64,000 nt of DNA, from assembly GCA_014377445.1 (NCBI GenBank), contig JACMPP010000020.1, positions 1-64,000 of the forward strand, given 5' to 3'. The first letter of the stretch is position 1. The number at the start of each line of letters is the position of its first letter. The notes under the pieces were generated by a model. That model was given only the letters and a program-made list of their open reading frames with translations. It was not told where the DNA came from and did no database searches. This document shows, in pieces, positions 24,019 through 33,403 of this stretch. Made by a program: the position numbers and the translations under genes. The stretch is from Oligoflexus sp. Lineage in GTDB: Bacteria; Bdellovibrionota_B; Oligoflexia; Oligoflexales; Oligoflexaceae.

Positions 24019-24411
24019 ATGACAACGCATAAACCGATGGTCTTGGTCGTTGATGACGAAGCTATGGCCCGGACCATGGCAAGCAAACTGCTGGAAAAAG
24101 CAGGATTTCTAACGCACTCGGTGGAAAGCGGAGAAGAATGCCTCCGCTTCGTCGGCCTGCAAAGACCTGACGCTATTTTGCTCGATATGCTTATGCCGAA
24201 GATGAGTGGATTGGAAGTACTGGAGAAATTGCGGTCGAATGCGGCGACGAAGGGGATACCGGTTCTGCTGGTTACCGCCAAGGGTCAGGCCGACTTCGTG
24301 AAGCAGGCCGTGGCTCTGGGTGTGGATGATTTCATCGTGAAACCATTTCATTCCTTGGATCTGATTGCGCGGGTCAAAAAGAAGGTTGCGACACCGCTTT
24401 CTCAAGGCTGA
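24019..24411 (+). CDS. CheY-like single-domain response regulator
   Basis: A 130-residue stand-alone receiver. Asp12-Asp13 form the acidic pocket, Asp56 (ILLDMLMPKMSG) is the phosphorylation site, Thr86 (LLVTAKGQ) and Lys108 (IVKPF) complete the switch. There is no output domain. Very good SD AAAAGGAG. Its end overlaps the convergent secreted-protein gene by 10 nt. A likely partner is the adjacent Hpt protein or the nearby SpoIIE phosphatase operon (inference). Confidence 0.92.
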   Translation: MTTHKPMVLVVDDEAMARTMASKLLEKAGFLTHSVESGEECLRFVGLQRPDAILLDMLMPKMSGLEVLEKLRSNAATKGIPVLLVTAKGQADFVKQAVALGVDDFIVKPFHSLDLIARVKKKVATPLSQG

Positions 24412-25235
24412 TCAAAGAGGACCTTGCTGCCCATTGGCACCTTGGGCCGACCTGATTTCGCGAGAGAGACTTTAGCCAGAACATACTCGTCGTTCTCATG
24501 CACAACGCGGAGCAAAGCCCCGATGTCTTTCTCTGCGTCCGCGACGATCGCCGCCGAAGATTGCTTGAGAATCAAGCCTTGCGCACCACGTTTCAGAGGC
24601 TTCAGTTTCGCGAGGACCAGATAGTCTTCCATCATCCCAACTACCACCGCGTCGTAACCAAATTGCTGCACGAGCCAACGCGCAGGCAAATCCTGTCTGA
24701 GTGAGTCCGGGCCTTTTTCAAAGGATACCTGAGGCGCACTGAGACCCTTTGATGTCTGATAAATCGCCCAGACCGATGGTGTCCCATTGGTTTTGATCAC
24801 AACGCCTTCAGCCTGACTCAATTCAGCATATCGCTTGAGCCGTGACACGAGTTCGTCGGCTTTCACTTCGGCTTTCTTTTGAGTTGGATTCAACTGTATC
24901 CAGAGTCGGATAGATTCAGGATCGGCGAGCTCAAACCAACCATAGCCTTCAAACTGGGCTCGATCGATGCCCAGAGGTGAAGGCGCACCATAAGCGCCGC
25001 CTTGCTCCTGCAAAAAGAGCCAGCGGCGTGGAATCGCGTGAGCGATCTTACCTGAATCTTTTTCCCAGGCGCTCAATATACCCGCGTAGTCGGCGCCTTT
25101 GGCTTCGACTTTCTCCTCAACTTTTTCTTCAGGCTTCGCTTCTGATTTTTCCTCTTCCGATTCCTGCGCAAAGCCAAGAGAACTCGTCGTGAGAGCGATC
25201 ATTAGCAAGGCTCGTTTGATGCCTGGGCTTTTCAT
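24402..25235 (-). CDS. Exported hypothetical protein of the SpoIIE operon
   Basis: 277 residues; signal peptide ~1-23 (ALLMIALTTSSLGFAQ), then a Glu/Lys-rich low-complexity stretch to ~47 and a globular part with WEKDSGKIAHAIPRRWLFLQ, YGWFELADPESIRLWIQL and ARWLVQQFGYDAVVVGMMED. I do not recognise it. Its ATG overlaps the phosphatase stop codon (ATGA) and has a strong GAGGAGG site within the phosphatase gene, so the two are translationally coupled. Confidence 0.75.
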   Translation of the reverse strand: MKSPGIKRALLMIALTTSSLGFAQESEEEKSEAKPEEKVEEKVEAKGADYAGILSAWEKDSGKIAHAIPRRWLFLQEQGGAYGAPSPLGIDRAQFEGYGWFELADPESIRLWIQLNPTQKKAEVKADELVSRLKRYAELSQAEGVVIKTNGTPSVWAIYQTSKGLSAPQVSFEKGPDSLRQDLPARWLVQQFGYDAVVVGMMEDYLVLAKLKPLKRGAQGLILKQSSAAIVADAEKDIGALLRVVHENDEYVLAKVSLAKSGRPKVPMGSKVLFDQP

Positions 25236-27130
25236 GCAACCTCCTCAAAATCAGATGAAATCACGACTAGCGTTGCATCGTCAGGCAATGGCGTGTTGTT
25301 ACGGAACTCTTCCATATCCAACATGATGCGGTCGCGGAAGAGAACCGGGCTTAAATTCATGTTCTTTTGAACCGATTTCTCAAGGTTACGCATGCCCCAT
25401 TGCTTCAGATCAGGGTTGAAGCATTCGACGATACCATCGGTGTACATGACCATGCGATCGCCTGGCATGAATTCGTCTTCGGAGTTCTGATAAACAGTAT
25501 CCGGATCAAAGCCGAGGGGTGCTCCGTTCTTTTTGATATCGCTTAGAATGATGTAAGGCTTAGCCTTGCGTTTCCCAGTCTTGAGACGCACGTCTTCGAG
25601 ACTCTGGGGAATGATAAGGGGGAAGGGATGCCCACCGTTACTGTAGACTATGGTGTTCGCTTTGGTATCGATGATACAAGCAAAGAAGGTCATGCAGAGT
25701 TTGCCTTTCAAACTGTCATAGAGTGCGTTATTGAGGAGACTTAAAACCATCGCGGGCGTAATGAAGTCGGACGCGGTTGTGGCTGGCAGCTTGCTACACA
25801 AGTGACCTGTCGCGTACGCAATTGCGGTTACAAGGGCAGCCGGCAGACCGTGGCCCGTGGCATCGCCGACGAGAAGCATGTGCGTGTTGGGAGCGATCAC
25901 ATAGTGACCCCAGAAGTCCCCTCCACACTCCGAAGCCGAGCGATAGCTGGAAGCCAGGACCATCGCACCTTCCTGAGAGAATTCCTGTGGAATGAAACTA
26001 CCCTGTACTTCGTTCGCAACATTAAGTTCGTTTTCGAGACGAACCATGTCTTTTTCATGATTTAAGAGGGTCGAAAGCTGGCCAGCCATCGCATTAACGG
26101 AATCACCAAGTTGCTTGATTTCGTCATTCCCACTGACTACGATCTTGGTATCGAATTGACCTTGAGCAATGGCTTCGGTCGCGAGGGTCACTTTTTCCAG
26201 ACGGTTGATGAGAGCTTCGGCACTGAAGAAGCTAACCAAAACCGCGATCAGAAGGATAAGAGCCGCCCATTTTGCAGTCTGTAGGATCTGATAGCGAAGC
26301 GGGGCAAAGAGAATATCCTCACGCTGCTGAAGAATGAGGGTCAAACCGGAGACCGGAAGCCGGTAGTAAGATCCTTGCCAGGCCACCTTTTTGCTGTCCA
26401 AAAAGCTGCCGAAGAAACCTGAGTTGAGTTCAAGTTTCATCATCTGATCGAAGCGTCTCAGATTTAAGACCTTGGTTAGATCCGCGGGAGGCGCTTTTCC
26501 AGCCAGGAAATCCTGCATGGATTCTGTGAGGATGACCGTTTTCATGCCGTCCTGAAGGTTCAACTGAGCGGAAAGCGGAGCCTTGTACGCCTCGACGACG
26601 ATCCAAAAGAGTTTGCCTTCAGAGACATTGATGGGAATACCTCGAGCCATGCGAAGCACGTCTTTGCGGGGGGCGATGTCGACGAAGAAGAGTCGATCCG
26701 GATTCTTCTCACGAGCCTTTTCCAACCAGGATTGTGCGAGTTCGGTGCGCTTGGGGTTTTCCTTGCTTTCATCTTTTGCATAGCTGTTTTTGAGGATCAA
26801 AACCTTCTTGTCTTCCAGGAAGACGTCGCCAGCCGTGAAATCCTTTTCAACATCGATCAGACGCTGAAGTTCTTCCATAGCCTGGGATTCGGGCATCGGG
26901 TAGATACCTTGGAGAAGGTAGACGGTTGAGAGCGCCCAGCGTTGAATGATGCCATCCAATTCGCCGCCGATCTTCTCACTCGTTTCGATCGATGAGCTAC
27001 GGAAGCTCGACTCGAGAAGCTGCGTGAGGACTCGCGATTGCAATATACTCATTGTCACGATCGTCGCAAACGCGAGAACGAAGGTCATGATGAAAAATTT
27101 AACTCGTAAGGAGGCTGTTAACCACTTCAT
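25232..27130 (-). CDS. Membrane sensor PP2C/SpoIIE-type serine phosphatase with HAMP domain
   Basis: Signal-transducing phosphatase, probably acting on an anti-sigma-factor antagonist or similar phosphoprotein. 632 residues: helix ~10-30, extracytoplasmic sensor ~31-285 (Cache-like by position), second helix ~286-305, HAMP ~306-360, SpoIIE phosphatase ~380-630. Metal-site motifs are ECGGDFWG (~401-408), VGDATGHGLPAAL (~421-433), and MYTDGIVE plus LPDDATLVVI near the end. All acidic metal ligands appear intact. Its start is 15 nt after the barrel gene's stop. Confidence 0.93.
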   Translation of the reverse strand: MKWLTASLRVKFFIMTFVLAFATIVTMSILQSRVLTQLLESSFRSSSIETSEKIGGELDGIIQRWALSTVYLLQGIYPMPESQAMEELQRLIDVEKDFTAGDVFLEDKKVLILKNSYAKDESKENPKRTELAQSWLEKAREKNPDRLFFVDIAPRKDVLRMARGIPINVSEGKLFWIVVEAYKAPLSAQLNLQDGMKTVILTESMQDFLAGKAPPADLTKVLNLRRFDQMMKLELNSGFFGSFLDSKKVAWQGSYYRLPVSGLTLILQQREDILFAPLRYQILQTAKWAALILLIAVLVSFFSAEALINRLEKVTLATEAIAQGQFDTKIVVSGNDEIKQLGDSVNAMAGQLSTLLNHEKDMVRLENELNVANEVQGSFIPQEFSQEGAMVLASSYRSASECGGDFWGHYVIAPNTHMLLVGDATGHGLPAALVTAIAYATGHLCSKLPATTASDFITPAMVLSLLNNALYDSLKGKLCMTFFACIIDTKANTIVYSNGGHPFPLIIPQSLEDVRLKTGKRKAKPYIILSDIKKNGAPLGFDPDTVYQNSEDEFMPGDRMVMYTDGIVECFNPDLKQWGMRNLEKSVQKNMNLSPVLFRDRIMLDMEEFRNNTPLPDDATLVVISSDFEEVA

Positions 27131-27144
27131 AAAACCGTCCTAAA

Positions 27145-28752
27145 TTACCAGGTAACGGAAAAGCCAGCACCGAGATACGTCACGTTATAAGAAGCACCAC
27201 TGGTCGTCGTGCTTGTTGCCAGGTTCAGAGAAAGTTGTGGGGCAGCCTCCTTTTGCAAGGTCACCCAATCGATGTACCCAAAGGCCACTGCACCGACGCG
27301 CAGTCCACCAAGAGTTTTGAACATGTCGTAGGACAGATCCGCTCCCGCTCTCTGGTTTGAAATCTTGGTTGGGTTCGATTTTGCCAGGACATAACCGGAA
27401 AGATGGTTGCTTGCCCATACCTTCAAACGGTAGCTCAGCGATTCCAGTTCCCAGGAGAATTCTCCGCCGAGATCGATCTGACGGGAAAGCTTGAATTCGG
27501 CGACCGTCGCAAATTCCAGGTTTTCGGAGGCATTGAGAGGGAAGTAGGCGTCCAGACTCAGTACCCCGATTTTCGGTGTCGCCTTGAAGCGCGTGGCAAA
27601 ACGATCAATCGTCTGCGGTGTGCCGAGAGTGAAAGACCAGCCTGTTTCCACACGCGTCCAGGTATAAGAATAAGTTTCAACACCCTCTTTAACTCCAAGG
27701 CGGGGTGAGAATTCGACTCCGAAGGTAAAGCCGTCCAGCATGCCCTTACCAACGTCGGCAATGACTTCAATCTTTGCGGCGTGGCTGACAACGGTCGTTC
27801 CCTTAGGGAAAGGAATACCGTAGCGGAAGGAAAAGGTGTTGGACTTCAAACCTTCCAGCACATATTTTTCAAGGATACTGTTATTGGACTGTCCCTCACG
27901 CAAGGTGAGGAAGGCAGGATCAGGCTCTTTCTCCAAGGGGTTATAAATTTCCTGGGCCCAGAGTCTCATCTTGCTTTGACGTGGGGTATTGACCCAATGC
28001 AATTCAAGGGGACCACCACCTTCACGATCAAAGTTCTTATTCGAGTCATCACCGACGACGGGCTGGGCGACGGCGAACAGGGTCGGGACCCAGGTCTTCT
28101 GCTCAAGGTTATAAGCTAAAGAGAAGAGACCGATTTTGTGCGGGGGATTTATGACATTCATCATAGCGGGCTGAAGGGGGTTTAGCTGCCATTGGATATC
28201 GGTTTTATTGAACATTGCGCTCCAGCCCATGGGCATGGCGCGATAGATCTTATTGATGACATAGAACTTGGGCTCAGGATAGGCAAAGAGGAAGTCAGGG
28301 GTGAGCTGCTTCGGAAATTGAACGGATCTTAGCAGAACCGGCTCTGTCTTCTTCCCTTTGGGTTGGAAATAGATATCAAGGGCAAAACCCTCGCTTTTCC
28401 AAGTGAAGATGAAATGCCAGGGATCGTTGGCGGGAGAGACTTCATCCAGGGATTTAACATAATCCAATGATTCACATTCGATTTTGCTAAAGACGCCTCG
28501 GCCCTGAGGTCCTTTGCCAACCAGGAAGTTTGATGAGAAATCTTCGCAGAAGTTTTCCCAGTCCTGGCCCAAACGTTCTCGGAAGGCTTTGGGGATGAAC
28601 TTTTCATCTGCTCTGAAGGATAGAGTCATGCGACCCACCTTCATAGGTATCTCCTTAGCAGTCAGCGACCCGCAGAAGAACAGGGCGAAAAATATCACCA
28701 ACGCCCTTCCGATTTGTCTGCTGCACCTAGTTGGGATGCTGTACTTCAGCAT
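27145..28752 (-). CDS. Outer-membrane beta-barrel-like exported protein
   Basis: I chose the ATG at 28752 (535 residues) because a signal sequence follows it directly (ALVIFFALFFCGSLTA) and a G-rich site precedes it. The mature protein alternates polar and hydrophobic residues in long strands, particularly from ~300 on, and ends in YLGAGFSVTW, a terminal aromatic residue as in BAM-dependent barrels. N-terminal ~200 residues may be a periplasmic domain. Family unknown. It heads the operon with the SpoIIE phosphatase and an exported protein. Confidence 0.7.
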   Translation of the reverse strand: MLKYSIPTRCSRQIGRALVIFFALFFCGSLTAKEIPMKVGRMTLSFRADEKFIPKAFRERLGQDWENFCEDFSSNFLVGKGPQGRGVFSKIECESLDYVKSLDEVSPANDPWHFIFTWKSEGFALDIYFQPKGKKTEPVLLRSVQFPKQLTPDFLFAYPEPKFYVINKIYRAMPMGWSAMFNKTDIQWQLNPLQPAMMNVINPPHKIGLFSLAYNLEQKTWVPTLFAVAQPVVGDDSNKNFDREGGGPLELHWVNTPRQSKMRLWAQEIYNPLEKEPDPAFLTLREGQSNNSILEKYVLEGLKSNTFSFRYGIPFPKGTTVVSHAAKIEVIADVGKGMLDGFTFGVEFSPRLGVKEGVETYSYTWTRVETGWSFTLGTPQTIDRFATRFKATPKIGVLSLDAYFPLNASENLEFATVAEFKLSRQIDLGGEFSWELESLSYRLKVWASNHLSGYVLAKSNPTKISNQRAGADLSYDMFKTLGGLRVGAVAFGYIDWVTLQKEAAPQLSLNLATSTTTSGASYNVTYLGAGFSVTW

Positions 28753-28800
28753 TAGTCCCCCGACTTTGTCAAGGTTTGCATCGTCTGCCTGATTCCGAAG

Positions 28801-28913
28801 CCTTTGAATTGCAAAGGTTTCTAATTCAAATATCATGAAAAATCAAATGAAGGTGTTCCCATTGAACACTTTCATATTTAGTTATCGGTGACTTATAAGT
28901 TTTTATGAGTCAC
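28801..28913. promoter_or_regulatory. Three perfect or near-perfect dyads in a divergent promoter region
   Basis: CCTTTG-AATTG-CAAAGG (28801-28817), GTGTTC-CCATT-GAACAC (28853-28869), and GTGACTTATAA with TTATGAGTCAC (28888-28913, one mismatch). The first two share a 6-5-6 geometry. They lie between the SpoIIE operon and the FecR gene and are candidate operators. Confidence 0.45.
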
Positions 28914-28985
28914 GACTTAATTTTTCTCATTCCGTGCCGAAGCGAACAATGAATACCTCTGGCGTTTTAGACAAGGTGTAGACCA

Positions 28986-30587
28986 ATGTCGAAAAGATGG
29001 AAAATTTTCTGGATCGTATGGCTGGCATGTTTAGCGCCAGTTCTATACAGCTTACTGCATGAAGGCGAATCCCACCTTGCGGGCGGTAAAGCTATCGCCC
29101 GTGTGGAAAAGATTGAAGGCAACGTCACCGTCCGATCTGAAAGCCAAATGATCTGGCAAAAGGCTGTGCCTAACCAAGAACTCTATAATAACGATTTAAT
29201 ATCGACCGAGAATAAAAGTACCGTAAACATCGTCTTTGACGGTGGTCGCAAGCTTCAACTCAGCCCAGGTTCGGTCGTTAAACTCGGTTTGCCATCCCCT
29301 TTATCGAAAGATCATGAGGTTTCCGTCTTGAAAGGCCGCTTGGTCGTCAAAGCCGAAGAACCCAAAGCTGATGAAAAACCAGGCAGCAAAGGCGCAAAAG
29401 ACGCCGAGGAGGATCCACGACTCATCCTCAAGACTACCACTGAGAAGATCATAACCACACCCTCGAAACCTCAAACGGTTGATGTTTCCCCAAAAGTTGC
29501 TGATAAAACTGTGGCTGAAGCGGTAACGTCTCTCGAAGCCCTTAAGAAATTGAATCTCGGCGACAGCATGAAGCTCTCAGCACTGACGCCCCTAAAAGAG
29601 ATCTGCCCCCCCCCCCCAGCACCCGTGCCGCTTGAACCTGAGCCCCTTGCTGATAAAGAGGCAGAAAAAGCCACTGTTCCCAGTTTTGATGCGGGTCTAC
29701 TCCCCCAGATTCAACCCCTGAGTGGTGAGTTCTGGACTGCAGAGCCGATGAAAAAAGTCACTGACCAGGCGCTTCGTCTGGATATCGATCTTCCGGTGAA
29801 GATGCCCAAAGACCTGAAGGATAAGTGGAAGGGTATAGTCAATATCTCAGGACCCAACGGTCATATCCGCATCGACGGTAAAGTCGCAGGGGGGCGCAAG
29901 AAGCTTAGCATTACGCTCAAAGACCTTTTAGCGGCTCAAGTCATCAAAGATATCAATCAGGCGTCCTTCGCCGTAAATGCCGGCTATTCCGTGGAATCGC
30001 CGGCATTCAACGATGCGATCGAACACAGCTCACCGACGACCGGTGTCTACAGCCTCAGAAGCCTCGCTGAAGGTGAAGGTATTATGATCGGCTTTAACAA
30101 GCTCCAATCTCAAACCACGTCCGCTCCCTGGTACTTCGTCACTCCCAATGCGAACAAACGCATTTGGATCGGTGTGACCGAAGCCGAAGACCGCAGAAAA
30201 CTTTTCGGCGTCGTCCAAGGCAACAATGGTGAAGTCGCAAGAACCGATTGGCCTGGAATTCCAGCTCAAGGTGCATTTATTGTAAGAAAAGACAAAATCG
30301 TCGGCATCGTGGTCGCCAAAGATCTGAACGAAGGGGAGTGGGATAAAATCCGCAAACTCTTCAACGCCGATCTGATCTTCCGAGGCTCATCACAGTCTTA
30401 TATCAGCCGCGCGGGCTTCGACGTGAACGAAACCAACGAGAGAACCGTCTTCGCTCTAAACCGCGGTGAGTTTGTGGAAATCGATGTTTCCCTCCTTCGC
30501 ACCCGCCCATCCACAATGCGCTTCGTCCAAGGCCTTTCGACCTTCCTCTTCCGTGAGCAACCCCAGATCCTAAGCGTCGCTCGCTAG
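28986..30587 (+). CDS. FecR-domain membrane-anchored protein containing a poly(C) tract
   Basis: 533 residues. A membrane anchor or uncleaved signal at ~7-24 (WIVWLACLAPVLYSLL) is followed by a FecR domain (~35-105: ARVEKIEGNVTVR, NDLISTENKSTVNIVF, LQLSPGSVVKLG), an acidic/Lys linker, a Pro-rich stretch (~207-225) and an unrecognised C-terminal domain. FecR domains sense periplasmic signals or stabilise secretin-like assemblies. Twelve consecutive Cs at 29606-29617 encode CPPPP in frame; gain or loss of one C meets a stop soon after. Transcribed alone and ended by the terminator at 30609-30652. Confidence 0.82.
   Translation: MSKRWKIFWIVWLACLAPVLYSLLHEGESHLAGGKAIARVEKIEGNVTVRSESQMIWQKAVPNQELYNNDLISTENKSTVNIVFDGGRKLQLSPGSVVKLGLPSPLSKDHEVSVLKGRLVVKAEEPKADEKPGSKGAKDAEEDPRLILKTTTEKIITTPSKPQTVDVSPKVADKTVAEAVTSLEALKKLNLGDSMKLSALTPLKEICPPPPAPVPLEPEPLADKEAEKATVPSFDAGLLPQIQPLSGEFWTAEPMKKVTDQALRLDIDLPVKMPKDLKDKWKGIVNISGPNGHIRIDGKVAGGRKKLSITLKDLLAAQVIKDINQASFAVNAGYSVESPAFNDAIEHSSPTTGVYSLRSLAEGEGIMIGFNKLQSQTTSAPWYFVTPNANKRIWIGVTEAEDRRKLFGVVQGNNGEVARTDWPGIPAQGAFIVRKDKIVGIVVAKDLNEGEWDKIRKLFNADLIFRGSSQSYISRAGFDVNETNERTVFALNRGEFVEIDVSLLRTRPSTMRFVQGLSTFLFREQPQILSVAR
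29606..29617 (+). repeat. Homopolymeric C12 tract inside a coding sequence
   Basis: Twelve uninterrupted Cs. In the present length the 533-residue frame is open. With 13 Cs translation stops at TGA 29633-29635; with 11 Cs it stops at TGA 29719-29721. This is the classic form of a slipped-strand contingency locus. Confidence 0.85.
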
Positions 30588-30670: not shown

Positions 30671-33403
30671 TCAAGCCGCCGTCACTCCAAAGAGAGACGC
30701 CGGAAACTCGACTATGAAGCGGAAAGGGACATATCGGGGAAGACTCCCCTCATCATAGCTATTTCTAGCTTCCATGCGGATCGTCCCACCCAAACGCTCT
30801 ATCTCGTGCTTTACAGCGTCCATGCCTATGCCCCGGCCTGAGAGCTGACTTAACTCCTTGGCCGTGGACACGCCTGACGAGAAGATCAATGAGAGCTTCT
30901 CGCTGAGAGCGAGTTCGGAGGGAGCTGCCGTCTTTTGCACAAGCGCCTCAATATCGATGCCCCGACCATCGTCTTCAATCACAATCTGGAGCCTGTTCGT
31001 GGCCCAGCTCGCATGAACACTGATCCGACCCGATCTATCTTTACCGACCTCAATCCGGGCGCGCGGCGCCTCGATTCCGTGATCGATTGAATTCCTCAGG
31101 ATGTGTCCGAGCGCATTGAGGAGCCCGGTTTGAAAAGAAGGCGTCAGCCAAAGGCCTTCGGGATATTGCAGGTCCAGCAGAGGCTGCGCTTTGCCTAGCT
31201 CGTCGGCGATCCGCAGAAGATCAGACTCAAGCTCCTGCCAGTGTTCGGCGAAGGAGCTGCTCAGGCGATTTTTAAGCAGCTTTTTGACATAATTGGTATG
31301 GATCGGATGGCCATCAATCCAGTTCTGAAGGAGGACAATATCCTCAGAAGCAAAGAGCAGTCGATCCTTCTGATGGTCACTCACGCCCCAGTAACGATCA
31401 TGAAAGGAAATAATAAGTTCGATATCGGCGGCCAAAGTTGTCAGCCCGATATCAAGGACGACGGAGAAATCAGCTTCCGCCTCACCATGCGTCTCCCGAA
31501 GATCGACGATGTTCTGTTCAAAGCCATGAACGTCCTTCGCGAGCTGAACAAAACCGATCTGACGACTATTGCCTTTGAGGGTGTGAAGAAGGGTGAGGAT
31601 CAGGCGAATATAGGATTGGTCGTCACTCGACATATTCATGGCCCAGACGCTCTGAATCGTACTGAGAGTTTCCTGAGCCTGGTCTATAAAGCTACAATAG
31701 CGGTAGTTCTTGGCCTTGGCCAGAGCGCTGATGAGCACCATCTCCTGTTCCTGATGGAGAGTTTGCTGGAGCAAATCCCTCAGCTCCGTCGTATCGCGGA
31801 CGATGATCAACATTTCTTCCACGATGCCGTCTTTTAGAATGGGGTGCCATTGAAAGGTCAGGACCCTGTGATCGTGCGTTTCCAGCTCGGTGAAGAGATG
31901 CTCGCTGTTGATTTCCCAGCTAATGGCATCTTCACCGATAATCGTCAGCAACACGGAAACGGCCATATCCAGGCTGCTACGTTCAATCGTTGTGTTGGAG
32001 ACCAAAAGGTCAGAGAGTTTATACCGCATCGCATCGGGAAATATTTCGTTCACGTATTTGGAACAATGCCCCTGAATGCGCAGGCTTTTGCCGATGGTAA
32101 AGAGACCTTCCGGAACATTATCCATAATGTTCCGGATCTGAAGCGTCTGCAATTCGACTTCATGCTGAAGATGTTCCGTCAGATGCTCCGCCCGTTCAAA
32201 GGCCTTGGCAAAACGTTTCGCCAGGATCTGACTTTGCAGAAAGATGAAGATCGCCCCACCAAAGTGCGAAATATAGGATGCGCTTCCGGATCGAGACTGC
32301 ACAACATCGATAACACCCGCGATAAGCGGAATAAAGGCACTCGCGAGCATGTAGCCCGCTCCGTCCTCTTTGAGGCGAACGGCCGCAAAGGTGATGTAGA
32401 CCATACAAAGAATATGAATCAGAACGTTGGCCTGAAAGTAGCCCACCCCCTTCGTGAAGAATACGGGCTCACAGAAGACCACGGTCATGAGCAGGATAGC
32501 GCTAAAGGTATGAAGCAAGACGTAGAGGGGTTTGGGTAAACGAGCAAGGGTAAAAGTGTGATGGAGAAAAGCCAGAAATGCCAGGCTTACCAGCGTCATC
32601 GAACCATACTCGACGCGCGTCACCCATCGGAAAAAGACTTCGCTGTCCACATTGTCGACAAAATAGGAAAGGAGATTCTCAATGCCTATCAATCGCAAAA
32701 GAATGGCGAGACAGGTCAACGCGAGAAAGAAAGCCGGCAAATCACTGCGGCGGCGCGCAAAGAGCATAAAGATGTAGAGCATGATGATGAGCATGGAACC
32801 GGCGATTGCAAAGTTCAAACCCGCCATGATATTGGCTTGAGTCCGCAACACGCCGATCTTCGAGATCTTCGGTGCCGTCCAAAAGCCGCCGTAGGTGCGA
32901 TGAAAGTTCGAGACGTTCATGACGAGGACCCATTGATCGCCTTCCTGCACCTGAAAATCGAGGACGTAACGCTTGAGAAATGGAATTTCAGATGCCGCAT
33001 CGATTCCGAGGCGACCGATGGCGAGACGCAGCATTCTGTGCGGATTGCCTTTGGGGACGAGGTAAGCTTCAAAAGCGCTTGTCACAAAATCAAAGGCGAT
33101 TTCATGCGAGCCCGGAGTGAGTGAGGGCAATTCCCGCCAATAGCTGGCATAACCGATGCCTGAGGCTAGCTCAGGGGCATTATCCTGCCGCCAGGTGACA
33201 ACGCTGCTCGAATGTCCGCCCGACGGCATGACAGCTCTTTTTGCAGTCTCTTCGCTGATGAATTGATGGGGCCACATATGGGCTTCGGAGAGTTCGATGA
33301 TCCTCTGCTTATCCTCCCGATCGGCGTTAGACGCATCCACTCCGGCCCAAGCAGGTTTGGCCGAAAGCAGGAGTGTGAACGTCAAGAGAAGGATTCGAAG
33401 CAT
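30671..33403 (-). CDS. 7TMR-DISM membrane receptor fused to Hpt and CheA-like ATPase domains
   Basis: 910 residues. Signal peptide (~1-20), extracytoplasmic sensor (~21-190, 7TMR-DISMED2-like), seven membrane helices (~190-390), a coiled coil, a PAS-like segment (~425-545, NIMDNVPEGLFTIGKSLRIQG), an Hpt domain (LLHTLKGNSRQIGF, acceptor His) and a C-terminal CheA-type ATPase with N box LGHILRNSIDHGIEAP, G1 IEDDGRGID and G2 LSGRGIGMDAVKHEIERLGG. There is no CheW-like P5 domain and no classical dimerisation His box, so phosphate goes onto the Hpt His as in CheA, but in a membrane-bound receptor. Gene lies 27 nt after rsmA. Confidence 0.87.
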   Translation of the reverse strand: MLRILLLTFTLLLSAKPAWAGVDASNADREDKQRIIELSEAHMWPHQFISEETAKRAVMPSGGHSSSVVTWRQDNAPELASGIGYASYWRELPSLTPGSHEIAFDFVTSAFEAYLVPKGNPHRMLRLAIGRLGIDAASEIPFLKRYVLDFQVQEGDQWVLVMNVSNFHRTYGGFWTAPKISKIGVLRTQANIMAGLNFAIAGSMLIIMLYIFMLFARRRSDLPAFFLALTCLAILLRLIGIENLLSYFVDNVDSEVFFRWVTRVEYGSMTLVSLAFLAFLHHTFTLARLPKPLYVLLHTFSAILLMTVVFCEPVFFTKGVGYFQANVLIHILCMVYITFAAVRLKEDGAGYMLASAFIPLIAGVIDVVQSRSGSASYISHFGGAIFIFLQSQILAKRFAKAFERAEHLTEHLQHEVELQTLQIRNIMDNVPEGLFTIGKSLRIQGHCSKYVNEIFPDAMRYKLSDLLVSNTTIERSSLDMAVSVLLTIIGEDAISWEINSEHLFTELETHDHRVLTFQWHPILKDGIVEEMLIIVRDTTELRDLLQQTLHQEQEMVLISALAKAKNYRYCSFIDQAQETLSTIQSVWAMNMSSDDQSYIRLILTLLHTLKGNSRQIGFVQLAKDVHGFEQNIVDLRETHGEAEADFSVVLDIGLTTLAADIELIISFHDRYWGVSDHQKDRLLFASEDIVLLQNWIDGHPIHTNYVKKLLKNRLSSSFAEHWQELESDLLRIADELGKAQPLLDLQYPEGLWLTPSFQTGLLNALGHILRNSIDHGIEAPRARIEVGKDRSGRISVHASWATNRLQIVIEDDGRGIDIEALVQKTAAPSELALSEKLSLIFSSGVSTAKELSQLSGRGIGMDAVKHEIERLGGTIRMEARNSYDEGSLPRYVPFRFIVEFPASLFGVTAA

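Follow-up and report, generated by a model that had tools for sequence, protein, structure and literature searches.

A twelve-base cytosine tract in the proline-rich linker of a FecR-like gene of Oligoflexus, and the conserved gene neighbourhood around it

The FecR-like gene and its C12 tract

We have analyzed a 64 kb stretch of DNA (the window) from a metagenome-type draft genome of Oligoflexus (4.76 Mb in 166 contigs, 82% complete). A gene coding for a FecR-like protein contains here a run of twelve Cs (C12), situated in the middle of its contig, 29.6 kb into 81 kb. The immediate surroundings of this gene are formed by genes for a SpoIIE phosphatase, a beta-barrel protein and a kinase, and by a KsgA-like gene. 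The features of the locus are collected in Table 1.

Table 1. Features of the locus, with positions in the window
Feature	Position	Strand	Basis
C12 homopolymer, from the last base of Cys207 (TGC) through Pro208-210 (three CCC codons) to the first two bases of Pro211 (CCA)	29606-29617	+	Sequence read
FecR-like gene, ORF of 533 aa	28986-30587	+	ORF list, PF04773 profile score, family alignment, structure model
N-terminal helix, residues 3-25, read as membrane anchor (topology inferred)	28992-29060	+	Family alignment, model
FecR-like beta domain, residues ~36-167	29091-29486	+	PF04773 matches, 5ix9 profile and fold match
Proline-rich linker with the tract, residues 168-247	29487-29726	+	pLDDT, identity profile, alignment
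Conserved C-terminal domain, residues 248-533, removed by any single-base slip	29727-30584	+	Simulated slips, alignment, model, identity
TGA, end of translation at tract length 13	29633-29635	+	Sequence, simulated slip
TGA, end of translation at tract length 11	29719-29721	+	Sequence, simulated slip
Outer-membrane beta-barrel protein, 563 aa, with N-terminal periplasmic-type domain; divergent, conserved partner	27145-28836	-	ORF list, neighbourhoods, model, structure search
HAMP and SpoIIE (PP2C-type) phosphatase, conserved partner	25232-27130	-	Profile scores, neighbourhoods
Putative exported protein, 277 aa; partner in 9 of 14 neighbourhoods	24405-25238	-	Neighbourhoods

An earlier note on this DNA had singled out the tract as an uninterrupted run inside an open frame of 533 codons, and both the sequence and the ORF list bear this out. 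The two stops that it predicted for tracts of 13 and 11 Cs were reproduced exactly by simulated slips, the protein ending after 216 codons in the first case and after 244 in the second, with the stops 5 and 33 codons along the shifted frames. Single-base slips interrupt the frame in both directions, and the 289-317 residues lost agree with the approximately 310 C-terminal residues announced in the note. The truncated forms would be expected to have lost their function. This anatomy fits that of a translational contingency locus, with a tract that is in frame, early stops in both alternative frames and a length over the published cut-offs. Twelve is the in-frame length of the tract and no assembly error is evident, since the frame equals that of the ortholog described below on both sides of the run.

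The AlphaFold2 model divides the protein into the four parts listed in Table 1, among which the linker is predicted to be disordered, with most pLDDT values below 50. The match to FecR (PF04773) reached 17.3 bits, under the cut-off of 24, and the same profile was found at E<=0.1 in 9 of 15 members of the family (best E 4.2e-8). A weak match to the LapA retention module (NF033682, NCBIfam) was also under its curated cut-off. The nearest solved structure is 5ix9, a cell-surface anchoring domain, detected by profile with E=1.8e-6 and by fold in the beta domain, with a Foldseek probability of 1.00 and a TM-score of 0.77 of the target. For the C-terminal domain the structure search of the model returned no convincing fold match. 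The predicted anchor helix begins at residue 3, and because only two residues precede it there is no room for a cytoplasmic anti-sigma region. On the basis of this model the protein is FecR-like and not a FecR anti-sigma regulator. The earlier statement that truncation would leave the anchor and the FecR domain holds for their order, both of them preceding the tract, while the domain itself, being under the FecR cut-off, can only be called FecR-like. An anti-sigma switch was discarded, there being no cytoplasmic domain.

A conserved gene neighbourhood

Within the order, we have compared the surroundings of the FecR-like gene at 14 loci of relatives that belong to families f1, f7, f8, f10 and f11. 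The gene of the HAMP/SpoIIE-type phosphatase was a neighbour in all 14, the outer-membrane gene in 12, and the 277-aa exported protein was encoded nearby in nine. At two of these loci (L071 and L073) the four genes are co-directional, in the order SpoIIE, FecR-like, barrel and 277 aa. At other loci it is the SpoIIE gene that points away from the remaining ones, and in the window the FecR-like gene does so. A search with the barrel family across 38 relatives also found barrel and FecR-like genes adjoining in many genomes. The module (24405-30587 in the window, L061-L074 in the relatives) is kept in five or more families of the order, with gene order and orientation changing. The divergent outer-membrane/SpoIIE operon noticed earlier is real, and its neighbourhood is conserved in relatives.

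The domains of the partners were clear for the phosphatase, with 114.2 bits for SpoIIE and 41.6 for HAMP, both against a cut-off of 25; PepSY_2 in the 277-aa exported protein was weak and below the cut-off. The model of the barrel protein shows long antiparallel strands at residues 334-562, and the protein ends in an aromatic residue. The best folds retrieved with it were outer-membrane barrels, among them EspP (E 1.6e-4), the TM-scores being low, and a C-terminal transmembrane beta-barrel is predicted for this partner from the model. Taken as a group, the FecR-like protein, the phosphatase and the barrel probably form an inner-to-outer-membrane signalling or anchoring module. No description of such a SpoIIE, FecR-like and barrel module was found in the papers searched. 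This conserved neighbourhood is a sturdier lead than the tract and points to an uncharacterised envelope module.

The family of the outer-membrane partner is expanded in the draft genome, with 11 matches (some of them fragments of one frame) against a single full-length FecR-like gene. Some 280 bases past the nearest matched segment of one paralog (contig C26, 7693-9210, minus strand), and possibly upstream of it, there is a C8 run (C26, 9493-9500). Between the FecR-like and the KsgA-like genes lies a sensor kinase with 7TMR-DISM, Hpt and HATPase domains (30671-33403). It was either gained here or lost in the same-genus relative (L061), since it is missing from the equivalent site there, and for the same reason this histidine kinase was discarded as a member of the module.

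Conservation and rarity of the tract

A search of the contig collection for a second genome of the same species returned only a MAG of the same genus, Oligoflexus sp. LF-bin-20, whose gene (74% identity) is the sole close ortholog found. At the place of the tract this ortholog has ICPPPPPPPPQTP, with no homopolymer; the motif ICPPPP is kept at the protein level, and the codons are mixed, TGT CCG CCG CCG CCC CCT CCA CCG CCT for the cysteine and the eight prolines. Synonymous sites between the two genes are saturated (pS 0.78), so that a repeat under selection should stand out, and the homopolymer was not preserved; the same saturation makes dN/dS not computable for the pair. The C-terminal domain and the N-terminal part are equally constrained, with pN values of 0.125 vs. 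0.143, and the lowest identity corresponds to the linker region (53% over residues 126-247 vs. 80% on either side).

Proline-rich stretches at the equivalent site are common among the homologues examined and reach up to 17 consecutive residues, always with mixed codons. The longest proline run per homologue ranges from 1 to 17, and the length of the linker varies widely too. The longest C run in the other homologues examined was 9, and neither an off-frame homologue nor an internal stop was detected, every homologous frame examined being open. The comparison with related genomes proposed in the earlier note went against its expectation: proteins in a truncating frame were not found, and the tract is broken by mixed proline codons in the same-genus ortholog. 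The repeat was not retained at the locus in the related genomes. This non-conservation is not decisive, because the collections contain only one close ortholog and because species can differ in their contingency tracts.

As for rarity, no C/G run of 8 or more besides C12 occurs within the window, where the C8 pattern gave five overlapping matches vs. 1.0 expected from dinucleotide shuffles. Pattern searches of the whole draft found 19 runs of length 8, two of length 9, six of length 10 and one of length 12, the last being C12, the longest C/G run of the 4.76 Mb and the sole one above 10. Markov models of order 2-5, fitted on a 464 kb sample of the genome, predicted genome-wide 16-23 runs of 8 or more (28 observed), 0.46-0.88 of 10 or more (seven observed) and 0.01-0.03 of 12 or more (one observed). 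A second null model kept the proteins and the codon usage of the genome, considered coding runs only and omitted the FecR-like gene. It gave per genome 4.3 coding runs of 10 or more and 0.7 of 12 or more. When the FecR-like protein itself was recoded at random, a run of 12 or more arose in 1.7% of the trials. The length of C12 exceeds the Markov expectation and the published cut-offs but not the null that preserves proteins and codons, and a single run of 12 in coding sequence is unremarkable with the protein taken as given. The 10-base runs still outnumber the 9-base ones (six vs. two).

Among the 10-base C/G tracts, one is located in a small lipoprotein gene and another in a Kelch-repeat lipoprotein, at codon 347 of 392. 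A further one, a poly-G, precedes an ATG by about 7 nt, and another is close to the beginning of a PAS-like ORF, assigned by eye and without a Pfam match (loci L031, L034, L033 and L039, on contigs C49, C62, C58 and C110 of the draft). The best relative of the Kelch protein in the genus is only 31% identical and uninformative on the conservation of its tract. The poly-C/G content was very uneven among four relatives (G017, G018, G011 and G010), with 652 overlapping 10-mers in G017. Several of the runs of relatives begin at the first base of a contig (contig C1 of G018, contig C79 of G011), which suggests sequencing artefacts in those assemblies.

Interpretation and comparison with known systems

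We consider it rather probable that C12 is an accidental homopolymer at the level of the species, incidental rather than a selected switch. CCC codons would have given rise to the tract within the linker, a proline-rich segment which, in this FecR-like inner-membrane protein, connects the periplasmic FecR-like domain with the conserved C-terminal domain. A proline linker is an ordinary amino-acid reason for a C run. The anchored protein would span the periplasm through this flexible linker and touch the outer-membrane partner, and the HAMP-SpoIIE phosphatase would be the cytoplasmic output of the module. By analogy with the tract lengths used for phase variation elsewhere, slippage at C12 is likely to be raised, even with MutS and MutL genes in the genome, and truncated variants would appear at a higher rate, most likely as loss-of-function mutants and not as the product of a selected phase switch. 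We infer both the lack of selection for slippage and the function of the module. Against the incidental reading stands the excess of the tail of C/G runs over the Markov expectation, together with the presence of some of the other long runs in lipoprotein genes, which is the appearance expected of a set of contingency loci.

The earlier note had considered the gene a candidate for phase variation. On this reading, slipped-strand changes would toggle between the full-length protein and a truncated one that keeps the anchor and the FecR-like domain, and the envelope module would be on in some cells and off in others. The proposal is supported in part, by the in-frame tract with its two early stops and by a length that satisfies the published screening cut-offs: 7 or more for G/C tracts in PhasomeIt (PMC6321876) and >8 in Bordetella (PMC1891110). 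No C/G run of the genome is longer, Markov models make one of this length improbable, and bvgS of Bordetella pertussis provides a precedent in a membrane signalling gene (PMC1891110). However, the tract is absent from the same-genus ortholog and from all other homologues examined, none of them is in an off frame, and the proline content of the linker and the codon usage suffice for the run. MutS and MutL genes were found, so there is no sign of a general loss of mismatch repair, which was ruled out, and as a switch of the FecR type the protein lacks the cytoplasmic anti-sigma domain. We therefore regard true phase variation as unlikely. The more specific version, a poly-C contingency switch in the periplasm-spanning part of an undescribed SpoIIE, FecR-like and barrel module, which would randomly uncouple outer-membrane sensing or anchoring from the phosphatase output, appears more doubtful still.

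The wide differences among homologues in linker length and proline number, in what is the least conserved part of the protein, are consistent with slips of three bases (9, 12 or 15 Cs) that would alter the number of prolines and the periplasmic reach with no off state. Such in-frame tuning is also a quite improbable explanation: single-base slips that disrupt the frame should outnumber the triplet ones, and the relatives vary their linkers by mixed codons, not by homopolymers. An error of sequencing or assembly, with a true length that is shorter or mixed, seems very improbable. The draft is incomplete, and the runs at contig ends of relatives suggest that artefacts occur in such assemblies, but the tract is located mid-contig, the frame runs unbroken through it and is collinear with the ortholog upstream and downstream, and the reported length is the in-frame one. 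Variation of the tract, if it occurred, would add a phase-variable signalling gene to a lineage for which none is described in the papers searched. More likely, the incidental reading of C12 illustrates that a proline-rich linker can create by chance a mutation-prone homopolymer, and calls for caution when tract length is the only ground for predicting phase variation.

No report of phase variation or of FecR in Oligoflexus, Oligoflexia or Bdellovibrio was found in the papers searched. The nearest parallel is bvgS of B. pertussis, which switches at C6/C7, a change of length that was seen in strains and tied to phenotype (PMC1891110). Like bvgS, the gene described here has a C homopolymer within the coding sequence of a membrane protein, and a one-base slip truncates it; unlike the C6/C7 of bvgS, with its observed variants, C12 was seen at one length, in a single genome, and is not kept in the relative. 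The poly-G/C loci of Campylobacter are comparable in that C12 lies inside an ORF and is over the cut-off of 7, whereas their tracts are found repeatedly within homology groups, with variation among the members, and C12 is single and species-specific (PMC6321876). The beta domain resembles FecR (PF04773), the LapA retention module (NF033682) and 5ix9, by sequence and by predicted fold. The difference is that the 533-aa protein is under the curated cut-offs and has no cytoplasmic anti-sigma region, so it is not a sigma regulator of the FecR type. The phosphatase is similar to the SiaA-type HAMP/PP2C phosphatases (NF038263) in its architecture of an N-terminal membrane sensor part, HAMP and SpoIIE phosphatase. 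It is distinguished from them by its score (39 bits, with the cut-off at 700) and by its company, which here consists of the FecR-like protein and the outer-membrane barrel.
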